Shown in pieces: positions 2,253-23,260 of a stretch of 37,458 nucleotides of DNA. Location of the stretch: positions 1 to 37,458 of the forward strand of contig CAIUWA010000033.1 in NCBI GenBank assembly GCA_903902745.1, written 5' to 3'. A program made the position numbers and the translations under genes. The DNA comes from an uncultured Opitutia bacterium (lineage in GTDB: Bacteria > Verrucomicrobiota > Verrucomicrobiia > Opitutales > Opitutaceae). The number at the start of each line of letters is the position of its first letter. The stretch's first letter is position 1. The notes under the pieces were generated by a model that ran no database searches, was not told where the DNA came from, and saw only the letters and a list, made by a program, of their open reading frames with translations.

Positions 2253-3593
2253 GTGTCCACCACTGCCGCCCCTTCACCCGCCCCGCGTCCACTTTCACTC
2301 GGGGTGATTTTCCTCACACTCTACATCGACCTGATCGGGTTCTCGATTTTCTTTCCGCTCGGGCCCAAGCTGCTCGCCTACTACATCGCGCACGAGAGCC
2401 AGGGCGGCCTTTTCTCGGCCCTCATCGCGCAGCTTGAATCCCTCGCCCAGGCCGCACACGCGAGCCAGGCCGCCGTCGCCGCCCTCTTCGGCGGCGTCCT
2501 GGGCTCCGTCTATTCGCTGATGCAGTTTGTCTTTTCACCCGTCTGGGGCGCGCGCTCCGACCGCACCGGCCGCCGGCCCGTGCTGCTCGCCACGATCGCG
2601 GGCAACGCGGCCAGCTACCTCATCCTGGTTTTCAGCGGCTCGTTCACGCTGTTCCTGCTCAGCCGCATCCTCGGTGGCATCATGGGCGGCAACCTCTCCG
2701 TCGCCATCGCCGCAGTGTCCGATGTGACCACCCGCGAAAACCGCGCGAAGGGCATGGGCGTCGTCGGCGCCGCGTTCGGCCTCGGCTTCCTCACCGGCCC
2801 GGCGCTCGGCGGCATCACCTCCGGCATGAACCTGCTCGACCGCCACCCCGGCCTCGCCGCGTGGGGCGTACATCCGTTCAGCGTGCCGGCGCTCATCGCC
2901 TTCGGCCTCTGCCTCGTGAACCTGGTCTGGATCGTCCTGCGCTTCCGCGAGACACTCCCGCCCGAGCGGCGCGGTGCCGGCGTCACCCTGCGCGAGCGCA
3001 ATCCGCTCCACGCGCTGTTCCTGCTGCCCGACGCCACCATCCGCCGTACCAACATCGTCGGGTTCCTGATCGTGTTTTCCTTCTGCTTCTTCGAGACGAC
3101 CATCAGCTTCTTCACCGCCGACGAGCTCGGCTATGATCCGCACCAGTTGACGTGGGTCTTCGTCTTCCTCGGCACCGTGTCGATCATGACGCAGGGCTTC
3201 CTGGTGCGCCGCGTGGTGAAGGCGCTCGGCGAGAAGGCCATGGCCCTGCTGGGTGTCTGCCTCCTGGCGGTCGGTCTGGTTTCGCTCGGCCTGAGCGTGG
3301 GCGTGGCCCGTTCCGCTCCCCTGATGTATGGTGCCCTGGTCTTTTGCGCCCTCGGCTCCGGCTTCGCCAATGTCGGCTTCTCCGCGCTGATTTCGCTCTA
3401 CGCCTCGGCCGAGGAACAGGGCAAGGTCACCGGCATCTACCGCTCGCTGGGTTTCCTCGCCCGCGCCGCGAGCCCCGCCGTTGCCGGCTTCCTTTACTTC
3501 CGCCTTCACGGCGCCTGGACCTACGGCATCGCCGGCACGCTCCTCCTCGTCCCCCTCGCCCTCGGCCTCTCCCTGCCCAAGCCGGTCAAATGA
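2253..3593 (+). CDS. MFS transporter, TetA-like drug/proton antiporter type
   Basis: A 446-residue inner-membrane transporter of the major facilitator superfamily, probably a 12-helix proton-driven exporter. LGVIFLTLYIDLIGFSIFFPLGP is the usual first helix of DHA1/TetA-type carriers. Motif A is present in the loop between helices 2 and 3 (SPVWGARSDRTGRRPVLL), followed by GRILGG-like helix 4 residues (SRILGGIMGGN) and GFLTGPALGG in helix 5. I chose the GTG at 2253 because the protein then starts with a short Pro/Ala-rich tail before helix 1; the same frame is open from a GTG at 2145, which would add a further hydrophobic segment. Its stop overlaps the ATG of the next gene (ATGA at 3590-3593), so the two are probably co-translated. 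The substrate cannot be read from the sequence. Confidence 0.85.
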   Translation: MSTTAAPSPAPRPLSLGVIFLTLYIDLIGFSIFFPLGPKLLAYYIAHESQGGLFSALIAQLESLAQAAHASQAAVAALFGGVLGSVYSLMQFVFSPVWGARSDRTGRRPVLLATIAGNAASYLILVFSGSFTLFLLSRILGGIMGGNLSVAIAAVSDVTTRENRAKGMGVVGAAFGLGFLTGPALGGITSGMNLLDRHPGLAAWGVHPFSVPALIAFGLCLVNLVWIVLRFRETLPPERRGAGVTLRERNPLHALFLLPDATIRRTNIVGFLIVFSFCFFETTISFFTADELGYDPHQLTWVFVFLGTVSIMTQGFLVRRVVKALGEKAMALLGVCLLAVGLVSLGLSVGVARSAPLMYGALVFCALGSGFANVGFSALISLYASAEEQGKVTGIYRSLGFLARAASPAVAGFLYFRLHGAWTYGIAGTLLLVPLALGLSLPKPVK

Positions 3594-4939
3594 ATCCTGA
3601 GGACCGAGGACCGAGGACAGAGGACCGAGACCGGAGATCGGAACCCAATCCGCCTGGCCGGCCATCTGTCCTCCGTTTTCTGCTCTCTGCTTTCCGTCCT
3701 CCGTCATCCGGCGTCCGGTATCTGGCGTCGGGCGTCCGTCCTCTGTCCTCCGTCCTCTGCCTGCCCGCCATAGCCCTGGCGACGGCGGGTCTCCTGAGCC
3801 AGACCGGCTGCCTCTCCCCCCGCCACGAGGCCCTCCGCCCGGGCCGGACCACGCTCGGCACGCCGCTGGTCGTGCTCCCCGCCCAGAATTACGGCGACTG
3901 CCTCGTCGTCGAGGTGAAGTGGGATCGCTACGGGCCCTACCGTTTCCTCATCGACACCAATTCCTCGGTCACGCTCGTTTCGCCCGACCTCGCGAAGCGC
4001 TACGCCGTGAAGAACGCCCCGCCGCCCTTCAACGCCCCGCAGGTCCACGTCCAGTCCGCCGAGGGCGGCACCGTTCTCCTTGCCGCCACCACGCTGCGCC
4101 GGCTGGAACTCGGCGAGGCGCGCTTCGACGACGTCCCGGCGCTCATCTATGACTGCGCCGCGCTTTCGGCCCACTTTGGCGTGAAGATCGACGGCATCCT
4201 CGGCTTCCCGCTCTTCCGCGAAACGCTGCTGACCCTCGACTATCCGCGCACCCGCGTGCTGCTCAAACCCGTCGCCCCCGCCCCGCTGCTGCCCGGCACG
4301 ACCATTCCGTTCAACAACGACAGCAGGACGCCGCTCATTCCCATCCGCCTGGGCGATACGACTTTCATCGCCCTGATCGACTCGGGCAGCACCGCGGCCC
4401 TCAGCCTCAACCCCGTCGGCCTGCAGCCGGTCTTCGCCGCCGGCCCCCGGCCCGGCCCCATCGTCAGCACGCTCAGCGGCGACCATGCGTCCCGGGTCGG
4501 CCGGCTCGCCGACACCCTCATGATCGGCGGCTATGCGCTGCCCCGCCCGCTCGTCGAGGTCACCGACGAGCTTTCCTCGATCGGCGGCGAGGTGCTGATG
4601 AACTTCACCGTGACCTTCGACCAGGAGCGGGGCCAGGTGACGTTTTACCGCGAGAGCCCCGCGACGGTCACCTTTGAGCCGCGCCGCAGCACGGGTGTGA
4701 GCTTCAGCAAGACCCCGGTCTACTGGCGCGTCGTGGGCGTGGTGCCCGATTCACCCGCCACCGCCGCTCACATCCAGCCGGGCGACCTCGTCACGCGCAT
4801 CAACGGCGAGCCAGTCGTCCAGTGGGACCTGCGTCGCTTCGAGGAACTCGTCGCCACCGCGCGTACCCTCACCTTCACCTTCCTCAACGGCACCCAGGAG
4901 CACAACACGACCCTGCCCGTGTTCGATCTGGTGCCGTGA
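3590..4939 (+). CDS. Lipoprotein retropepsin-like aspartyl protease with C-terminal PDZ domain
   Basis: A 449-residue predicted envelope protease. Two pepsin/retropepsin-like lobes are visible: the first has FLIDTN (D122) followed later by GILGFPLF, the second has ALIDSG (D264). A PDZ fold follows at about residues 365-440 (VVPDSPATAAHIQPGDLVTRINGEP). The first active-site triad reads DTN rather than DTG, so that lobe may be altered. A hydrophobic stretch ends in TGC at C74, a plausible though non-canonical lipidation Cys. The only ATG is at 3590, overlapping the MFS stop; it gives a signal peptide with an implausibly long, charged leader, because residues 2-70 are encoded by a dispersed intergenic inverted repeat. 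The true start may be a non-ATG codon inside the repeat. Expected location: periplasm, membrane-anchored. Confidence 0.75.
   Translation: MNPEDRGPRTEDRDRRSEPNPPGRPSVLRFLLSAFRPPSSGVRYLASGVRPLSSVLCLPAIALATAGLLSQTGCLSPRHEALRPGRTTLGTPLVVLPAQNYGDCLVVEVKWDRYGPYRFLIDTNSSVTLVSPDLAKRYAVKNAPPPFNAPQVHVQSAEGGTVLLAATTLRRLELGEARFDDVPALIYDCAALSAHFGVKIDGILGFPLFRETLLTLDYPRTRVLLKPVAPAPLLPGTTIPFNNDSRTPLIPIRLGDTTFIALIDSGSTAALSLNPVGLQPVFAAGPRPGPIVSTLSGDHASRVGRLADTLMIGGYALPRPLVEVTDELSSIGGEVLMNFTVTFDQERGQVTFYRESPATVTFEPRRSTGVSFSKTPVYWRVVGVVPDSPATAAHIQPGDLVTRINGEPVVQWDLRRFEELVATARTLTFTFLNGTQEHNTTLPVFDLVP
3595..3791. repeat. Long imperfect inverted repeat, GAGGACNG vocabulary, plus a CCGCC/GGCGG palindrome
   Basis: Starts two bases after the MFS stop. 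The left arm (about 3598-3635) is built from repeated gaggaccg/gaggacag units. The right arm (about 3736-3760) is the complement type, gtcctctgtcctccgtcctc. It is followed by a compact palindromic unit at 3758-3791 (cctgcccgccatagccctgg...). The same units recur at 16712-16940 and 18161-18275. Here the repeat is inside the open frame of the downstream protease and encodes its signal-peptide region. Confidence 0.8.
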
Positions 4940-16028: not shown

Positions 16029-16763
16029 ATGCCTTGCGAACTCATTCTCGTCCTCGACGCCCAATCCCCCCGCGACGTCGCCCCTACCCTGAAACGTCTC
16101 GCCGGCACCGTCAAATGGGTGAAGGTCGGACTCGAGATGTTCACCGCATGCGGCCCCGACTGTGTGCGCGAGGTCGCCGGCCTGGGGTTCAATGTCTTCC
16201 TCGACCTCAAGCTCCACGACATCCCCAACACCGTGGCCAAGGCGGTCGAGTCCGCCTCCCGCCTCCCGATCCAGATGCTCACGCTCCACACCGGCGGCGG
16301 CCGCGAGATGATGGCGTGGGCCGTCAAGGCCCAACAGCAATCCGCGCCCGGCCTGCGCCTGCTCGGCGTGACCGTGCTCACCTCGATGAGCGGGAAGGAA
16401 CTCAATGAAACCGGCGTCGCTGGCACCGCCGAGGAGCAGGTCGTCCGGCTGTGCCGGCTGGCCGTGGACGCCGGCCTGCGCGGCCTCGTTTGCTCGCCCC
16501 TCGAACTCGCCCCGCTCCGCGCTGTATTGCCGTCCGAAGTCGCGCTGGTCACGCCCGGCATCCGGCCACGCGACGCCAAGGCGGACGACCAGACCCGCGT
16601 GATGACCCCCGCCGAAGCCGCCCGCGCCGGCGCGAGCTACATCGTCGTCGGCCGCCCGATCTTCAAGGCACCGGATCCGGTGGCCGCCGCTCGCGCGATT
16701 CTCGCCGAGTTGGAGGCCGGAGGCCGGACCCCGGACGCCGGACGCCAGAGAACAGAGGACTGA
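16029..16763 (+). CDS. pyrF: Orotidine 5'-phosphate decarboxylase
   Basis: 244 residues. It decarboxylates OMP to UMP, the last step of pyrimidine synthesis. The catalytic charged network is visible: LVLDAQ (D10), VKVGLEMF (K33) and FLDLKLHDIPNT (D59, K61, D64). VTPGIRP and YIVVGRPI are the phosphate-binding loops near the C-terminus. The fold should end about residue 230; the last 15 residues (AGGRTPDAGRQRTED) are encoded by the left arm of an intergenic inverted repeat and are probably a neutral extension. The ATG at 16029 is the natural start. It is divergent from ispE across a 58-base gap and followed by ispD after a repeat-filled gap. Confidence 0.93.
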   Translation: MPCELILVLDAQSPRDVAPTLKRLAGTVKWVKVGLEMFTACGPDCVREVAGLGFNVFLDLKLHDIPNTVAKAVESASRLPIQMLTLHTGGGREMMAWAVKAQQQSAPGLRLLGVTVLTSMSGKELNETGVAGTAEEQVVRLCRLAVDAGLRGLVCSPLELAPLRAVLPSEVALVTPGIRPRDAKADDQTRVMTPAEAARAGASYIVVGRPIFKAPDPVAAARAILAELEAGGRTPDAGRQRTED

Positions 16764-16940
16764 GGCCAGAAGACGGAAACCAAAAATCAGAAGCCCGCAT
16801 GATCATGCTTTCCTATCCCTTTTTTCGAAGTTCGTCCATGTCTCGCCGTCCTTCCTCCGCCCCCCGATCTCCGGCTTCCGGCGTACGGCTTCCGACCTCT
16901 GGCGTCCGTCCTCTGTCCTCCGTCCTCCGGTGGCGGGCAG
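16712..16940. repeat. Long inverted repeat, GAGGACNG/GGCGTCCG vocabulary, overlapping the pyrF 3' end
   Basis: The left arm, about 16712-16775, is made of ggaggccgg, ggacgccgg and agaacagaggactgagg units. The right arm, about 16858-16940, has the complement types ccggcttccggcg, ctggcgtccgtcc and tctgtcctccgtcctcc. The middle (about 16776-16850) is unrelated AT-richer sequence with no gene. The pyrF stop (16761-16763) is inside the left arm, and the ispD start follows the right arm by about 8 bases. Confidence 0.8.
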
Positions 16941-17654: not shown

Positions 17655-18134
17655 ATGCCTTCCTTCCGCATCGGCCACGGTTACGACATCCACCGCCTGG
17701 TCGCCGGGCGCCCGCTCGTGCTTGGCGGCGTTACCTTCGCCACCGACTATGGGCTGGAGGGACATTCGGACGCCGACTGCGTCACCCACGCCATCTGTGA
17801 CGCGCTCCTCGGCGCGGCCGGCCTGCCGGACATCGGGCATTTTTTTCCCAACACAGACCCGGCTTACAGGAACATCGATTCCCAAGCCCTCCTGCAGCGC
17901 GTCTGCGCCGAAATCGCGAAGCTTGGGTATGATATCGTCAACATTGACGCCACCGTGATCGCCGAGAAGCCGAAGATCGCCCCGCAAATTCCCGCGATGA
18001 AGGCCGCGCTCGCGAAGTCGACGGGCCTCATCGCCGACGAGATCGGCCTCAAGGCGACGACCAACGAGGGAGTCGGTGATCTCGGCCGCGGCCTCGCCAT
18101 CGCCGCCCACGCCGTCTGCCTGCTCAAGCGATGA
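17655..18134 (+). CDS. ispF: 2-C-methyl-D-erythritol 2,4-cyclodiphosphate synthase
   Basis: 159 residues, the usual length of this trimeric zinc enzyme, which cyclises CDP-methylerythritol phosphate with release of CMP. IGHGYDIHRL gives the metal ligands D11 and H13; EGHSDADCVTHAICDALLGA supplies the third ligand and substrate contacts; DIGHFFPNTDP and VNIDATVIAEKPKI are typical. Near the C-terminus KATTNEGVGDLGRGLAIAAHA keeps the T-T-N-E and G-R, but where most family members have GRxEGI this protein has GRGLAI, losing the Glu. Its TGA overlaps the ATG of the first OppA-type gene (ATGA, 18131-18134). Confidence 0.92.
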   Translation: MPSFRIGHGYDIHRLVAGRPLVLGGVTFATDYGLEGHSDADCVTHAICDALLGAAGLPDIGHFFPNTDPAYRNIDSQALLQRVCAEIAKLGYDIVNIDATVIAEKPKIAPQIPAMKAALAKSTGLIADEIGLKATTNEGVGDLGRGLAIAAHAVCLLKR

Positions 18135-19831
18135 CGATATTTTCCCTTCGGGCATTCATCCGTCTCCTGCCTGCCCGCCATAGCCTTGGCGACGGCGGGT
18201 CCCCCGTCCTCCGTCCTCTGTCCTCTGTCCTCTGCCTTCTGTCCTCCGTCTTCTGGCTTCTGGCCACAACCGGCTGCCTGAAGCACGGCACGGACGTGGA
18301 GCGAGGCAATCGCGAGCAGGTGCTGCACCGCGGCACCGGCTATGAAATCGGCAATCTCGATCCGCATCTCGCCACCAACATCTCGGAAATGGATCTCATT
18401 TCCGCCCTGTTTGAGGGACTCGTGACCGAGGACCCCACCGACCTGCATCCGGTGCCGGGCGTCGCGGAGCGCTGGGAGGTTTCGTCCGACCAGCTCACCT
18501 ACACGTTTTTCCTGCGCGCCGGCGCCCACTGGTCCAATGGCACCCCGCTCACCGCGGAGGATTTTGTGGCCTCATGGCGCCGGATTCTCACGCCCTCGCT
18601 CGCCTCGGCCAATGCCGGCCTGCTCTACGTCCTGCAGGGAGCGGAGGCTTTCGCCAAGGGCGGAGCGAAGGACTTTGCCCAAGTCGGCGTCAAGGCGGTG
18701 GACGCCCGCACCCTGCAGGTCACCCTCGCCCAACCCACGCCGTATTTCCTTTCGCTGCTCACCCACACCGCCTGGCTGCCGGTGCCCCTGTCGGTCATCA
18801 CCGTCAATGGCCCCGCTTACGAACGTGGCAACTCCTGGGCCAGCGCCGGCCACTTGGTAGGAAACGGCGCCTTCACCCTGCAGTCGTGGGCGCCCAACCA
18901 GCGCATCATCGCCGTGAAATCCCCCGCCTATTGGGACGCCGCGCACGTCCGCCTGAACGCGATTCACTTTCACCCGATCGACAGCCTCGATGCCGAGGAG
19001 CGGGCGTTCCGCGCGGGCCAGCTGCACGTCACGTATGCGCTGCCATTCGCCAAGGGGGAGTCCTATCGCCGCGACGCCCCGCAGTTTCTCCGCGCCGATC
19101 CCTACCTGAACTCCTATTTCCTCCGCCTCAACGTCGCCCGGCCCTTCCTCAACGAGCCGCGCGTGCGCCGCGCACTGGCGCTGGGCGTGGATCGCGACGC
19201 CCTCGCCGGGAAAATCCTGCGCGGCGGGCAGCTCCCGGCCCACGCCTTCACCCCGCCCGGAACCGCCGGCTACACACCGGCCGCGCAGTTGCCCACCGAT
19301 TTTGCCGCCGCGCGCCAGTTGCTGGTCGAGGCGGGATATCCGGGCGGCCGGGGCCTGCCGGCCTTCGAGCTGCTCTACAACAATTCGGAAAACCACCGCC
19401 TGATCGCCGAGGCCGTGCAGGAGATGTGGCGCCGCGAGCTCGGCGTGCAGGTCCGCCTCGTGAACCAGGAATTCAAGGCCGTCCTCGAGCAGCGCCGCAC
19501 CGGCCAGTACCAGATCCTGTTCTCCGACTGGGTGGGCGACTATCTCGACCCGAGCACGTTCCTGGACGTCTGGCGCACCGACAGCGGCAACAACCACACG
19601 GGCTGGTCCAGCCCGGCCTACGATTCCCTCCTGCGCTCGGCCTCGCTCACCACCGACGCGGCGGCGCGCGAGGCGTTCTTCCAAAAGGCCGAGGCCCTGC
19701 TGCTCGAGGCCGCCCCGCTCGTGCCCCTTTACTACAACACCCACATCTTTCTGCTCCAACCTTCGGTCAAAGGCTGGCATCCCACCCTGCTCGACCATCA
19801 TCCCTATAAGCACGTGTGGCTTGAGGAATGA
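18131..19831 (+). CDS. Oligopeptide ABC transporter substrate-binding lipoprotein (OppA type), paralogue 1
   Basis: 566 residues of the SBP_bac_5 family, which captures oligopeptides in the periplasm and delivers them to OppBC-type permeases. Family motifs: NLDPHLATNISEMDLISALFEGL, LTYTFFLRAGAHWSNGTPLTAEDFVASW, VGNGAFTLQSWAPNQRI, RVRRALALGVDRDALA and the late VPLYYNTHIFL. A hydrophobic run (residues 30-45) ends in LATTGC, with Cys49 the probable lipidation site. The start is coupled to ispF by an ATGA overlap. Residues 16-45 are encoded by the same dispersed repeat that lies upstream of the protease at 3590, including RPLSSVLCL in the same reading frame. A downstream non-ATG start inside the repeat is possible. 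Confidence 0.88.
   Translation: MTIFSLRAFIRLLPARHSLGDGGSPVLRPLSSVLCLLSSVFWLLATTGCLKHGTDVERGNREQVLHRGTGYEIGNLDPHLATNISEMDLISALFEGLVTEDPTDLHPVPGVAERWEVSSDQLTYTFFLRAGAHWSNGTPLTAEDFVASWRRILTPSLASANAGLLYVLQGAEAFAKGGAKDFAQVGVKAVDARTLQVTLAQPTPYFLSLLTHTAWLPVPLSVITVNGPAYERGNSWASAGHLVGNGAFTLQSWAPNQRIIAVKSPAYWDAAHVRLNAIHFHPIDSLDAEERAFRAGQLHVTYALPFAKGESYRRDAPQFLRADPYLNSYFLRLNVARPFLNEPRVRRALALGVDRDALAGKILRGGQLPAHAFTPPGTAGYTPAAQLPTDFAAARQLLVEAGYPGGRGLPAFELLYNNSENHRLIAEAVQEMWRRELGVQVRLVNQEFKAVLEQRRTGQYQILFSDWVGDYLDPSTFLDVWRTDSGNNHTGWSSPAYDSLLRSASLTTDAAAREAFFQKAEALLLEAAPLVPLYYNTHIFLLQPSVKGWHPTLLDHHPYKHVWLEE
18161..18275. repeat. Dispersed repeat, right-arm type plus palindromic unit, inside an open reading frame
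   Basis: 18168-18201 matches 3758-3791 at 33 of 34 positions. It is followed by cgtcctccgtcctctgtcct and further ctgtcctcNgtc units to about 18275. Only the C/T-rich arm is present; no complementary purine-rich arm is seen nearby. It begins about 27 bases after the ispF stop, yet lies in the coding frame of the first OppA-type lipoprotein. Confidence 0.8.
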
Positions 19832-19865
19832 AGGGATCGGCATCATAGTTGCCGGAGGCGCACCC

Positions 19866-21479
19866 ATGCACCGAAAGGAATCCCATCTGTCTCAGTATCT
19901 TTGTGTCATCTCGTGCCTTGTCGCGGCCATCAGCTCCAGCTGCTCGCGGCCCGAACCCGCGGCCGCCCGCGAGCAGGTCATCCGGATCAGCCAGCGCAAT
20001 GAGCCGACGGACCTCGATCCGGCACACGGCATCGTTGACGAGTTTTTCATCATCCGGGCGCTGAGCGAGGGGCTGGTGACCCGCTCGCCCGGCGGGGGCC
20101 TGCGCGCCGCCGCCGCCGAGCGCTGGGACATTTCCGCCGACGGGCTGACCTACACCTTCCATCTGCGCGCCGACGCCCGCTGGTCCAACAACGAGCCGGT
20201 GACGGCGGCGGATTTCGTGGAGTCCTACCGGCGCCTGCTCACTCCCGCCACCGCCGCGCCCAAAGCCACGCTGTTCTTCGGCGTGAAGAACGCGCGCGCC
20301 TTTGTGGCCGGCGAACTCACTGATTTCAACTCCGTGGGCTTCCGCGCGGCCGATGAGCATACGCTCGTCGTCACCCTCGATCATCCCATGCCGGACTTCC
20401 TCGCCTACGCCGCCAGCGGACCGTGGATCCCCGTCAATCCGCGCGTCGTCGGCCGCCTCGGATCCGCCTGGACGCGCCCCGGCAACTTCGTGGGTAACGG
20501 CCCGTTCATCCTCGCCGAGTGGCAGCCGCACCAGCGCATCGTCGTGCGCAAGAACCCGCTCTACGCCGGTGCCGCCCGGGTGCGGCTGGACGAAATTGAC
20601 TTCCTCGCCTTCGACAACGACGACACGGAGGAAAAGGCCTACCGCGCCGGGCAGGTGGATGTGACGATGACCGTGCCCGTGACAAAACTCGCCGTCTACG
20701 AGCGCGGGCGCCCCGCCGACCTGCATCATGCTCCCCTCGCGGAAACGCGCTATCTCACGTTCAACACCGGCCGGCTGCCGCTCAATGACGCGCGGGTACG
20801 CCGGGCGCTCGCGCTGGCGGTCGATCGCGTGAAACTGGTGGACCGCGTGGTGCTCGGCGGCCGGGAGCCCGCCGGACGTTTCCTGCCCGCCACCCTGCGG
20901 CCGCGCAACGACCCCGACTTGTCCGCATCCGAGGCGTTGAAGTTTGATCCGGCGGAGGGCCGCCGGCTGCTCGCGGAGGCAGGCTTTCCCGAAGGCCGGG
21001 GCTTCCGCCAGCTCGAGCTCACGGCGTGGTCCCCCTCGCAGACGCCCGTGCTCGAGGCCATTCAGGAAATGTGGAAAAAGGAGCTCGGCATCGAGGTGAC
21101 CATCGCCACGCGCGAATACGGCGCGCATGTGGCGGCACTCCGGTCGGGGGCCTATGACATCGGTTTTGTCACGGCCATTCCGGATGTGGCCGATGCCGCC
21201 GATGTACTGCGGAATTTCACCATTGACGCCCCACTCAACTATCCGCATTGGTCCGATGCCCGCTATGATGCGCTGCTGGCCGAGGCCGAGCGCACCGGCG
21301 ACGCTGCCCAGCGGGCGGGACTGCTCCACGAGGCCGAGGCGCGGCTCGGCGAACTCTGCCCGGTGGCACCGCTGTATTTCAACGCGCGGAACTGGCTGAT
21401 GACGCCGCGCATCCGCGGCTGGCAGGAAGATGAGCTTTGGACGCGGTTCTATCCCAGCATTTACCTGCAGGAAAACTAA
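19866..21479 (+). CDS. Oligopeptide ABC transporter substrate-binding lipoprotein (OppA type), paralogue 2
   Basis: 537 residues, SBP_bac_5 family. It starts at the ATG at 19866, with an N-terminal MHRKESHLSQ, a hydrophobic stretch (YLCVISCLVAAISSSC) and a Cys around residue 26 as likely lipidation site; the frame is open back to 19821, overlapping the previous gene. Family motifs: EPTDLDPAHGIVDEFFIIRALSEGL, LTYTFHLRADARWSNNEPVTAADFVESY, VGNGPFILAEWQPHQRI, ARVRRALALAVDRVKLV and CPVAPLYFNARNW. It is clearly diverged from both neighbours rather than a recent copy. Three tandem binding proteins probably widen the peptide range of one permease. Confidence 0.88.
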   Translation: MHRKESHLSQYLCVISCLVAAISSSCSRPEPAAAREQVIRISQRNEPTDLDPAHGIVDEFFIIRALSEGLVTRSPGGGLRAAAAERWDISADGLTYTFHLRADARWSNNEPVTAADFVESYRRLLTPATAAPKATLFFGVKNARAFVAGELTDFNSVGFRAADEHTLVVTLDHPMPDFLAYAASGPWIPVNPRVVGRLGSAWTRPGNFVGNGPFILAEWQPHQRIVVRKNPLYAGAARVRLDEIDFLAFDNDDTEEKAYRAGQVDVTMTVPVTKLAVYERGRPADLHHAPLAETRYLTFNTGRLPLNDARVRRALALAVDRVKLVDRVVLGGREPAGRFLPATLRPRNDPDLSASEALKFDPAEGRRLLAEAGFPEGRGFRQLELTAWSPSQTPVLEAIQEMWKKELGIEVTIATREYGAHVAALRSGAYDIGFVTAIPDVADAADVLRNFTIDAPLNYPHWSDARYDALLAEAERTGDAAQRAGLLHEAEARLGELCPVAPLYFNARNWLMTPRIRGWQEDELWTRFYPSIYLQEN

Positions 21480-21518
21480 AGCCGCTTCCATTTTCGGAAA
21501 GCAGCGCTCAGCTGTAGG

Positions 21519-21553
21519 CCAGGTCATTGACCTGGCGCCACCTCAACGAGGTG
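21519..21553. repeat. Two adjacent compact palindromes between oppA paralogues 2 and 3
   Basis: ccaggtca-t-tgacctgg (21519-21535) is a perfect 8-bp stem with one central base. cacctc-aac-gaggtg (21539-21553) is a perfect 6-bp stem. Neither has a T-run, so they are not ordinary terminators; they sit about 40 bases after the stop of paralogue 2. Confidence 0.75.
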
Positions 21554-21640
21554 ACTTACAATGGTGGAAGGGGCAAATCGGAGGATCGCCGGCCTTTCCC
21601 GCGCTTGCCGCCGGTCGGGGTGGCGTGTGATGCTGCCCGC

Positions 21641-23260
21641 ATGCTGAAATGCAAGCTGGTCTCCTTTCTCGCCGTGGCGTTCCTGTTCGCCGGTTGCAGC
21701 AAAAAGGAGCCGGCCGCCACCACCGCGGGCGGAACCCCCACGAGGAAGATTCTGCGCTATGGCAACGGCACGGAGCCGCAGGATATCGATCCGCATGTCG
21801 TCACGGGCGTCCCGGAGCAACACCTCATCCAGACGCTCTCGGAGGGTCTGGTAAGCGAGGATCCGCAAATGAATACCATCCCCGGCGTGGCGGAGAAATG
21901 GGAGATCTCGCCTGACGGCCTGGTCTATACCTTTCATCTTCGCGCCGACGCCAAGTGGTCCAATGGCGATCCGGTCACCGCCCAGGATTTCGTCCAATCC
22001 TACCAGCGGGAGCTCACGGCCGCGCTCGCCAGCGAGTATGCCTACATGCTCTTCAATCACGTGCGCGGGGCAAAGGACTACTACGACGGAAAAATCACCG
22101 ACTTCGCCCAGACCGGTTTCAAGGCGATCGATCCCCGCACCCTCGAGATCACCCTGCTGCAGCCGGCGCCGTTCCTGCTTCATGCCATGAACCATTATGC
22201 GTGGTATCCCGTCCATATTCCCACGATCAGGAAATTCGGCGGCCTCGATCACCGGAGCACCGCCTGGACGCGTCCCGAAAATTATGTCGGCAACGGCCCC
22301 TACGTGCTCAAGTCATGGAAACCCAACCAGGTGATCGTCACCGAGCGCTCGCCGACCTACTGGGATCGCGCCCGCGTCAAGATCGACGAAATCGACTTCT
22401 ATCCCATCGAGCTCGCCGACACCGAGGAACGCATGTTTCGCAGCGGCCAGCTCGACATCACGAATGAAGTCCCCCTCACCAAGCTGGCGGTCTACCGTCG
22501 CGATCAACCCCGCTCGGTCCGCGTCGACCCCTATGATGGGCTCTACTACTATCGCTTCAACGTCCGGCGCAAACCCTTCGATGATGTCCGCGTCCGGCGC
22601 GCGCTCGCCCTGTCCATCGACCGCGAGAGCCTGGTGAAGAATGTCACGCTGGCGGACGAAGTGCCCGCCTACGATTTTGTGCCGCAAAATCTCCTCGGCT
22701 ACCGGAGCGAAAATTCCTTCCAGGCCGACATCGCGGAGGCCCGCCGCCTCCTCGCCGCGGCGGGCTATCCGGAGGGCCGGGGCTTTCCCCGGGTCGAGCT
22801 CCTCTACAACACGCTCGAGAAGCACAAGATCATCGCCGAGGCGCTGCAGGAAATGTGGCGGAAGAATCTCGGGGTGGAAATCAGCCTCCTCAACCAGGAA
22901 TGGAAGGTCTACGTCGACGCCCAGCATTCGCAGAATTTCCAGTTCCAGCGGGCCGGCTGGATCGCCGACTATGTCGACCCCCACGTTTTTTTCGACCTGT
23001 GGGAAACCGGCAACGGCAACAACGACACCAACTGGGGCAATCCCGAATATGACCGCCTGCTGCACTCGGCCCTTTCCACCCATGACAACACCGCCCGCTT
23101 CGCCATCTACCAGCAGATGGAGAAAATCCTCGTCGCGGAGATGCCGATCATGCCGATTTTTTACTACACCCATGCCCGCCTGATCAGCCCGCGGGTCAAG
23201 GGGTTTTATACGACTCCGGTGGACAACTATCCCTGGAAGTATGCCGACATCGATCCCTGA
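21641..23260 (+). CDS. Oligopeptide ABC transporter substrate-binding lipoprotein (OppA type), paralogue 3
   Basis: 539 residues, SBP_bac_5 family. The ATG at 21641 gives an excellent lipoprotein signal (MLKCKLVSFLAVAFLFAGC, Cys19), so this start is secure although the frame opens at 21527. Motifs: TEPQDIDPHVVTGVPEQHLIQTLSEGL, LVYTFHLRADAKWSNGDPVTAQDFVQSY, VGNGPYVLKSWKPNQVI, VRVRRALALSIDRESLV, then MPIMPIFYYTHARLI. It is the most canonical of the three and nearest to the permease genes, so it is probably the main binding protein. A 64-base gap separates it from the oppB-type gene. Confidence 0.9.
   Translation: MLKCKLVSFLAVAFLFAGCSKKEPAATTAGGTPTRKILRYGNGTEPQDIDPHVVTGVPEQHLIQTLSEGLVSEDPQMNTIPGVAEKWEISPDGLVYTFHLRADAKWSNGDPVTAQDFVQSYQRELTAALASEYAYMLFNHVRGAKDYYDGKITDFAQTGFKAIDPRTLEITLLQPAPFLLHAMNHYAWYPVHIPTIRKFGGLDHRSTAWTRPENYVGNGPYVLKSWKPNQVIVTERSPTYWDRARVKIDEIDFYPIELADTEERMFRSGQLDITNEVPLTKLAVYRRDQPRSVRVDPYDGLYYYRFNVRRKPFDDVRVRRALALSIDRESLVKNVTLADEVPAYDFVPQNLLGYRSENSFQADIAEARRLLAAAGYPEGRGFPRVELLYNTLEKHKIIAEALQEMWRKNLGVEISLLNQEWKVYVDAQHSQNFQFQRAGWIADYVDPHVFFDLWETGNGNNDTNWGNPEYDRLLHSALSTHDNTARFAIYQQMEKILVAEMPIMPIFYYTHARLISPRVKGFYTTPVDNYPWKYADIDP

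Follow-up and report, generated by a model that had tools for sequence, protein, structure and literature searches.

A mostly intergenic heptad repeat that appears to have been taken over as an export signal in Opitutaceae

Two lipoprotein leaders in one window

Signal peptides diverge fast, so their origin is hard to observe. The stretch of DNA analyzed here (the window, 37,458 nucleotides, positions 1–37458, within a genome of 3.29 Mb) carries two lipoprotein genes that seem to begin in the same C/T-rich repeat, which raises the question of whether repetitive DNA can become an export signal and whether such a repeat is directed to genes for exported proteins. The original prediction had suggested that the repeat could act as a portable signal-peptide donor.

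The first of the two genes encodes an OppA-type solute-binding protein (Table 1), and its ATG overlaps, as ATGA, the stop codon of the upstream gene, which we take to be ispF. Tandem Repeats Finder placed a period-7 array at 18199–18255 (unit GTCCTCT, rows with 81–88% matches), which a heptad scan lengthened to 18265. The earlier statement that residues of this leader come from ctgtcctc units thus holds for the repeat-encoded leader, while the 8-bp unit has to be replaced by one of 7 bp. The array encodes SPVLRPLSSVLCLLSSVFWLLA and is followed by TTG-Cys, with the Cys codon just outside the array, such that a hydrophobic core precedes a lipobox Cys (residues LATTGC), as expected of a predicted lipoprotein. 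It represents half an element, without a G/A-sense arm, and showed no excess folding energy compared with shuffles (z = −0.05). Three consecutive OppA-like genes, of which this is the first and is SBP_bac_5 by Pfam, followed by what we presume to be permease-like genes, occupy 18131–23260. Our heptad scan of the window detected no heptad array in the leaders of the second and third of these genes; a locus from another genome (L219) has one in the leader of the apparent counterpart of the second gene. No Rfam family reached its gathering score in the window.

The second gene encodes an aspartyl protease with a PDZ domain, and its ATG overlaps the stop codon of an upstream gene that is presumably transporter-like. 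Its leader, from start codon to Cys, is built from a G/A-sense array and a C/T-sense array plus a copy of a 26-bp palindrome, CCCGCCATAGCCTTGGCGACGGCGGG. This palindrome occurs at 7 places in the genome (≤3 mismatches), looks REP-like, adjoins the heptad arrays in both lipoprotein genes of the window, and is read in a different frame in each. The Pfam matches of the two mature proteins are unrelated (Asp_protease_2 and PDZ against SBP_bac_5) and both leaders are array-built, which bears out the proposal that two unrelated lipoproteins have a repeat-derived hydrophobic segment in common.

Table 1. Repeat-related features of the window (positions in the window; strand as read)
Feature	Position	Strand	Basis
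Aspartyl protease/PDZ lipoprotein gene with repeat-derived leader	3590..4939	+	ORF and Pfam
G/A-sense arm of palindromic heptad element, predicted translation NPEDRGPRTEDRDRRSE	3592..3647	-	Tandem Repeats Finder, heptad scan, folding
C/T-sense arm, putatively translated as hydrophobic part of the protease leader	3661..3769	+	Tandem Repeats Finder, heptad scan
Second copy of the dispersed palindrome (1 mismatch), read as LPAIALATAG	3764..3789		Genome search and translation
Predicted lipobox Cys codon of the protease (SQTG-C)	3809..3811	+	Sequence
G/A-sense arm before presumed ispD, beginning inside the end of the gene called 16029-16763	16712..16795	-	Tandem Repeats Finder, heptad scan, pairing
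C/T-sense arm, presumed untranslated, 17 bp upstream of the called start (16948) of the gene we take to be ispD	16844..16930	+	Tandem Repeats Finder, heptad scan
OppA-type solute-binding lipoprotein gene (SBP_bac_5)	18131..19831	+	ORF and Pfam
Dispersed palindrome, read as PARHSLGDGG in OppA	18174..18199		7 genome places, ≤3 mismatches
C/T-sense heptad array, predicted hydrophobic core of the OppA signal peptide	18199..18265	+	Tandem Repeats Finder, heptad scan, frame test
Predicted lipobox Cys codon of OppA (LATTG-C)	18275..18277	+	Cys located close to the equivalent position in 78 of 80 orthologue loci (taken as the Cys nearest to where one was expected, not a lipobox score per row; the 2 remaining loci start inside the gene)

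Spread and polarity of the heptad element

We found 62 overlapping three-unit matches (≤1 mismatch) in the genome, distributed over 17 of its 52 contigs; a reversed-pattern control gave 22 matches against these 62, but is not a null, since by our reading a degenerate pattern reversed in this way would still find these arrays. With a stricter unit, matches with ≤1 mismatch were present in 35 of 120 genomes of the family and exact matches in 21 of 288 genomes of the phylum, our own genome being included in both counts. Wherever two arrays on opposite strands lay within 200 bp of each other, the G/A-sense arm came first and the C/T-sense arm followed (31 of 31 pairs, 8 in our genome and 23 in relatives, with related genomes among them), though many arrays have no partner arm. 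Two elements of the window folded better than their shuffles (z = −3.9 and −2.4). Arrays situated within 60 bp before a called start were C/T-sense in 44 cases and G/A-sense in 3, and those after a stop codon were G/A-sense in 29 and C/T-sense in 18; given the fixed polarity, it is thus C/T-sense DNA that usually precedes a start codon. Among the 180 arrays in regions from relatives, 116 were classed as intergenic, which is an overcount because our gene caller trims starts and some translated leaders are therefore counted as intergenic.

Elsewhere in the same genome, three further leaders proved to be array-derived, those of an OppA paralogue (L025), a cyclophilin (L029) and a GH106 enzyme (L017, with a short array). 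The expectation that a C/T-rich repeat yields a ready-made hydrophobic stretch is therefore supported beyond the two genes of the window, with the repeat also providing the putative signal-peptide core of these three predicted exported proteins and, repeatedly, of proteins in relatives.

Arrays also lie in open frame inside 8 of our genome's own genes with Pfam hits, 6 of them outside the matched domains and 2 inside a profile. Five are located between two domains (in two E2 acyltransferases, a lipoyl/E3-binding protein, a MetH-like protein and a MutL-like protein), and one lies just after the domain of a DUF255 protein. The two inside a profile belong to a FixG/CcoG-like protein (the CcoG name being our assumption), whose Fer4_18 match is split in two, and to a DNA polymerase X-like protein, in which 108 residues of the thumb are aligned to 63 profile positions. 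Two further genes of this genome also hold an array in open frame, L015, which gave no Pfam hit, and L022. Judging by these positions, the arrays inside genes may be in-frame insertions.

Upstream of the gene that we take to be ispD, the C/T-sense array of the window (with its partner arm, 16712–16930) recurs before the ispD-like gene in 6 of 80 OppA loci (L030, L040, L044, L047, L077 and L086), some of these arrays being weak. At three other loci, a C/T-sense array reaches the called start codon of an apparently cytosolic or membrane gene (L221, 2498–2530, presumably alaS; L210, 2497–2536; L139, 1499–1533). As these arrays abut the start codon, they leave no room for a Shine-Dalgarno site, and such leaders, being rich in pyrimidines, might work via ribosomal protein S1.

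Reading frame and recurrence of the leaders

The OppA and protease leaders are indeed read in the same repeat frame, as had been pointed out. However, 7 and 3 have no common factor, and each of the three C/T frames of an ideal TGTCCTC array therefore runs through one peptide cycle, PLSSVLC, just as each of its three G/A frames runs through RTEDRGQ. With one cycle in every frame, a shared frame is not evidence, and we rejected it as such. Using 215 arrays with a score of at least 22 from our genome and its relatives, we found a stop codon in some C/T frame of 26 arrays compared with 582 of 1075 random places of equal lengths, while stops in some G/A frame were present in 90 of the 215 arrays and 606 of the 1075 random places. 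Stop-free frames are thus the rule on the C/T strand and only moderately frequent on the G/A strand.

Comparing the three frames within a single array is an internal control by which coding selection can be told apart from mutation of the repeat. We applied this comparison to 12 OppA-family leaders, chosen by homology of the mature protein and not by hydrophobicity, with array borders set automatically. In 12 of 12 leaders the coding frame exceeded both others in hydrophobicity (P = 1.9e-6 against an expectation of 1/3), with a mean hydropathy of 1.56 compared with 0.25 and 0.12 in the other frames, and it had the fewest or tied-fewest prolines in all 12 (totals of 16 versus 55 and 43). When one row per clade was retained, the coding frame was the most hydrophobic in 10 of 10, a figure that takes relatedness into account where the P values ignore it. 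Margins were small in two leaders, that of L036 (0.79 versus 0.65) and that of the second gene of L219 (0.31 versus 0.00 and 0.09).

For controls we skipped whole loci with flagged leaders, and the untranslated set was made up without arrays inside called genes and without the non-leader arrays of the 80 OppA loci. In 46 untranslated arrays located before genes, the frame of the downstream gene was no more hydrophobic than the others (0.40 versus 0.40, p = 0.89). Coding hydropathy also exceeded the best of three frames in 120 untranslated arrays (mean 1.56 versus 0.89, p = 8e-4), although the ranges overlap, the 95th percentile of the best-of-three values being 1.91 and single untranslated arrays being equally high. 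A lucky frame at the time of capture is thus unlikely to explain all of the difference. In a wider set, the coding frame was the most hydrophobic in 21 of 21 leader arrays. Nine of these rows, the non-OppA ones, had been selected by eye because their leader looked hydrophobic, which makes the result partly circular for them; it is therefore only from the 12 OppA-family rows that we draw the inference. This set was used without L133, whose arrays are near copies of those of L131, and without L184 and L242, whose leaders are unclear; L131 and L133 have a lipoprotein-like leader (SGPGC) in common. The presence of a frame bias in leaders and its absence from untranslated arrays suggest that the leader arrays are very probably translated and under selection. 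A preferred frame, as originally anticipated, is therefore borne out, in the form of a coding frame that is proline-poor and hydrophobic relative to the other two. The bias may have arisen after capture or by choice of suitable arrays.

We next consider how often a heptad leader occurs at this locus. OppA loci were fetched by protein body, and the best 80 of 179 confirmed stretches (548 kb) were analyzed; the orthologue records were mainly from Opitutaceae, Opitutae or Verrucomicrobia. Among the 78 of these loci that reach the N-terminus, 6 had a heptad leader (L036, L041, L049, L054, L061 and L077), a minority. Arrays with a score of at least 20 numbered 13 in the 80 loci, of which 6 were OppA leaders, 6 preceded the ispD-like gene and 1 lay elsewhere; at a score of at least 30, 5 of 6 arrays in these best 80 of 179 loci were leaders. 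The share of 6 in 13 is above chance, with P = 1.4e-7 if arrays fall uniformly and 0.001 if they are confined to non-coding DNA and leaders. Arrays were also more frequent in OppA leaders than at other gene starts (6/78 versus 6/364, p = 0.0095), but those six other starts were all ispD-like, and arrays may thus simply tend to occur in this region. When the unit was permuted without changing its composition, eight such versions gave 0–1 arrays with a score of at least 30 in the 548 kb, compared with 6 real ones, by which we rejected composition as the sole cause of strong arrays. At a score of 22 the margin was thin (1–8 permuted versus 11 real), and with the control covering scores 22 and 30 only, the weakest arrays, such as those of L044, L047 and L086, may be chance.

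We placed the heptad label on a tree of 82 rows, comprising 78 orthologue bodies from the best 80 of 179 loci, the window gene and three paralogues from our genome. The 8 labelled rows entail 7 changes, all 7 forced by starred branches; the sole labelled pair is L041 and L049, and a long-branch paralogue is among the labelled rows. Shuffling the labels gave a similar degree of scatter, with a mean of 7.8 changes and a value as low as the observed one in 87 of 500 shuffles. Seven changes for 8 labelled rows point to repeated acquisition of the heptad leader at OppA, judging by the tree, though the changes may include losses as well as gains. Among the tree rows from the best 80 of 179 loci, the nearest relatives of the window gene, L030 (84% identical) and L031, are without heptads. 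In an alignment with the window, the end of the presumed ispF gene, the OppA start codon with its ATGA overlap, and the mature part are retained in both, while the leader does not align. Further OppA-family heptad leaders were found outside the tree, in array-selected regions of relatives (L212, L219 with two genes, and L231).

Other repeats were observed at the same position in some orthologues. In L030, a different inverted repeat, GGACAGAA...TTCTGTCC, lies in the OppA leader (FVHFVHSVL), 170 bp before the Cys; since it occurs at 2 places in that genome (≤3 mismatches), we claim no dispersed family. The OppA leaders of L058, L062 and L100 contain short repeats of the TTTCGTGT type, which is another kind of repeat. 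A separate observation concerns L101, a contig titled as a Klebsiella pneumoniae MAG and possibly from a mislabelled bin: its OppA relative (49% identity) falls among Verrucomicrobiota rows in the tree.

Capture, rival explanations and known systems

In this group of soil and water bacteria, a mostly intergenic repeat has thus apparently been recruited as the export signal of secreted proteins on several occasions. The explanation we favor, to which we assign a probability of roughly 0.8, is that an intergenic palindromic heptad element has been recurrently exapted as the signal peptide of exported proteins, with a hydrophobic coding frame. According to this reading, a dispersed palindromic element (a G/A arm, a short loop and a C/T arm, or often one arm) would occupy largely intergenic sites in this Opitutaceae genome and in some relatives, and its fixed polarity would usually give a gene reading away from it C/T-sense DNA at the 5′ end. 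Such DNA would contain few stop codons and, whichever frame is read, encode a hydrophobic cycle of the PLSSVLC kind. It apparently goes untranslated where the gene that follows is cytosolic. Where the gene encodes an exported protein, the array could replace or extend its 5′ end and provide, on translation, the hydrophobic core of the signal peptide, with fewer prolines and higher hydrophobicity in the coding frame. For this account, we infer translation of the arrays, leader function in export and lipidation, and the mode of element movement from sequence patterns.

A different reading would have the arrays act as untranslated 5′ spacer, the look of a leader arising from an open frame that overlaps heptads poor in stops. 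It draws on the 189 of 215 arrays without a stop in any C/T frame and on the many arrays that abut called starts of apparently cytosolic genes, L221 being an example. We nevertheless consider it very unlikely, because frame-specific hydrophobicity and proline poverty were seen in 12 of 12 OppA leaders and were absent from 46 untranslated arrays, and because a Cys follows the hydrophobic stretch in array-bearing OppA orthologues just as it does in the others. In addition, neither window gene has an ATG between array and body, and the next start codons after the array are GTGs past the lipobox Cys. The position of a 7-bp unit within the 5′ coding region would also suit a phase-variation switch, in which a unit gained or lost would put the gene out of frame and silence the lipoprotein. 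Its precedent is neuO of the E. coli K1 phage CUS-3, where, in the available part of the source, a heptanucleotide tract allows full-length translation when the repeat number is divisible by three (PMC13001214). Here the units are degenerate (81–88% matches), by which slippage should be suppressed, and a switch of this kind seems most improbable.

That the repeat is an evolved signal-peptide donor, targeted to genes for exported proteins or preferentially retained there, would agree with its repeated use at OppA, with the OppA paralogue, cyclophilin, GH106 enzyme and protease leaders in one genome, and with the SGPGC leader in L131 and L133. If so, genes beside C/T-sense arrays should be enriched in signal peptides, but in the fetched regions there was no excess under strict prediction (23/69 versus 96/326, p = 0.56) or permissive prediction (27/69 versus 114/326, p = 0.58). 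These counts come from a home-made predictor that errs both ways: it called the presumed ispD start a signal peptide and, owing to the trimming of starts by the gene caller, missed at least both window leaders and that of L186. They cover all signal peptides in the fetched regions, as an approximation of a genome-wide lipoprotein check. Moreover, most arrays in relatives are classed as intergenic (116/180, including some trimmed leaders) and some lie inside genes. Targeting is thus not supported and the strong donor reading fails; we regard it as quite unlikely. What survives of the donor proposal is the repeated use of the array as a leader, and the idea that the repeat favors genes for exported proteins finds no support in the fetched regions. 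Within these regions the repeat occurs in many settings, and the genes that use it as an N-terminus are mainly those whose product looks exported.

Exaptation of an intergenic element, the reading we prefer, leaves room for a bolder and more doubtful version, which we put forward tentatively: the palindromic element might be a portable export-signal cassette, and captures refined by selection a regular route of signal-peptide replacement in Opitutaceae. Since the polarity of the element is equal in either orientation, insertion at any gene start would supply a mostly stop-free, hydrophobic leader in three frames, and the protease would also have received a charged, G/A-encoded n-region from it. 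In these leaders the source DNA is still recognizable and the same site has seemingly been converted more than once, by which the origin of export signals from non-coding repeats becomes directly testable. If the exaptation holds, it shows new protein address labels arising from repetitive DNA. There is also a warning for gene finders, in that our home-made coding-score caller trimmed both window leaders.

Functional random signal sequences were reportedly obtained by Kaiser and others in 1987, and the fact that signal peptides have little sequence specificity explains how a repeat can serve as one; those sequences came from laboratory selection, whereas the source in Opitutaceae is a dispersed natural repeat. 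The arrays resemble the neuO tract, so far as it is described, in being heptads at the 5′ end of a coding sequence, but the neuO units vary by slippage, while those of Opitutaceae are degenerate and encode a hydrophobic leader. A closer likeness exists to the GGGNATC heptads of Xanthomonas and Nostoc, which the available text describes as dispersed, mostly intergenic tandem units of 7 bp, with the purine-rich strand as the sense strand after stops and antisense before starts (PMC4692102). Ours are likewise tandem 7-bp units, dispersed, mostly intergenic and of equal strand polarity. They differ in that the unit, GAGGACA/TGTCCTC, has no runs of three G, unlike these Rehm-type repeats, whose GGGNATC unit is able to form G-quadruplexes, and in often forming a G/A...C/T inverted pair and encoding signal peptides and stretches between domains. 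The Opitutaceae heptad is not a member of the GGGNATC family, as its unit differs; no use as a signal peptide is described in the available portion of that source, and the word "peptide" occurs 0 times in its main text (PMC4692102).

No work joining such repeats to bacterial signal peptides was found among the matches listed from the open-access literature. The nearest parallel for the capture itself is provided by the RPEs of Rickettsia, palindromic repeats that occur between genes and are also fused in frame inside conserved proteins, according to the part of the source at hand (PMC2229807). By that description, our element is like the RPEs in being palindromic and found between genes, its arrays in open frame inside genes may be inserts of a similar kind, and its capture would work much as theirs does. 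The RPEs measure 105–146 bp, and the same portion of text describes neither a heptad structure nor a link to signal peptides for them (PMC2229807). Exaptation of a heptad repeat as a signal peptide would accordingly be a new form of a known process, the in-frame capture of repeats.
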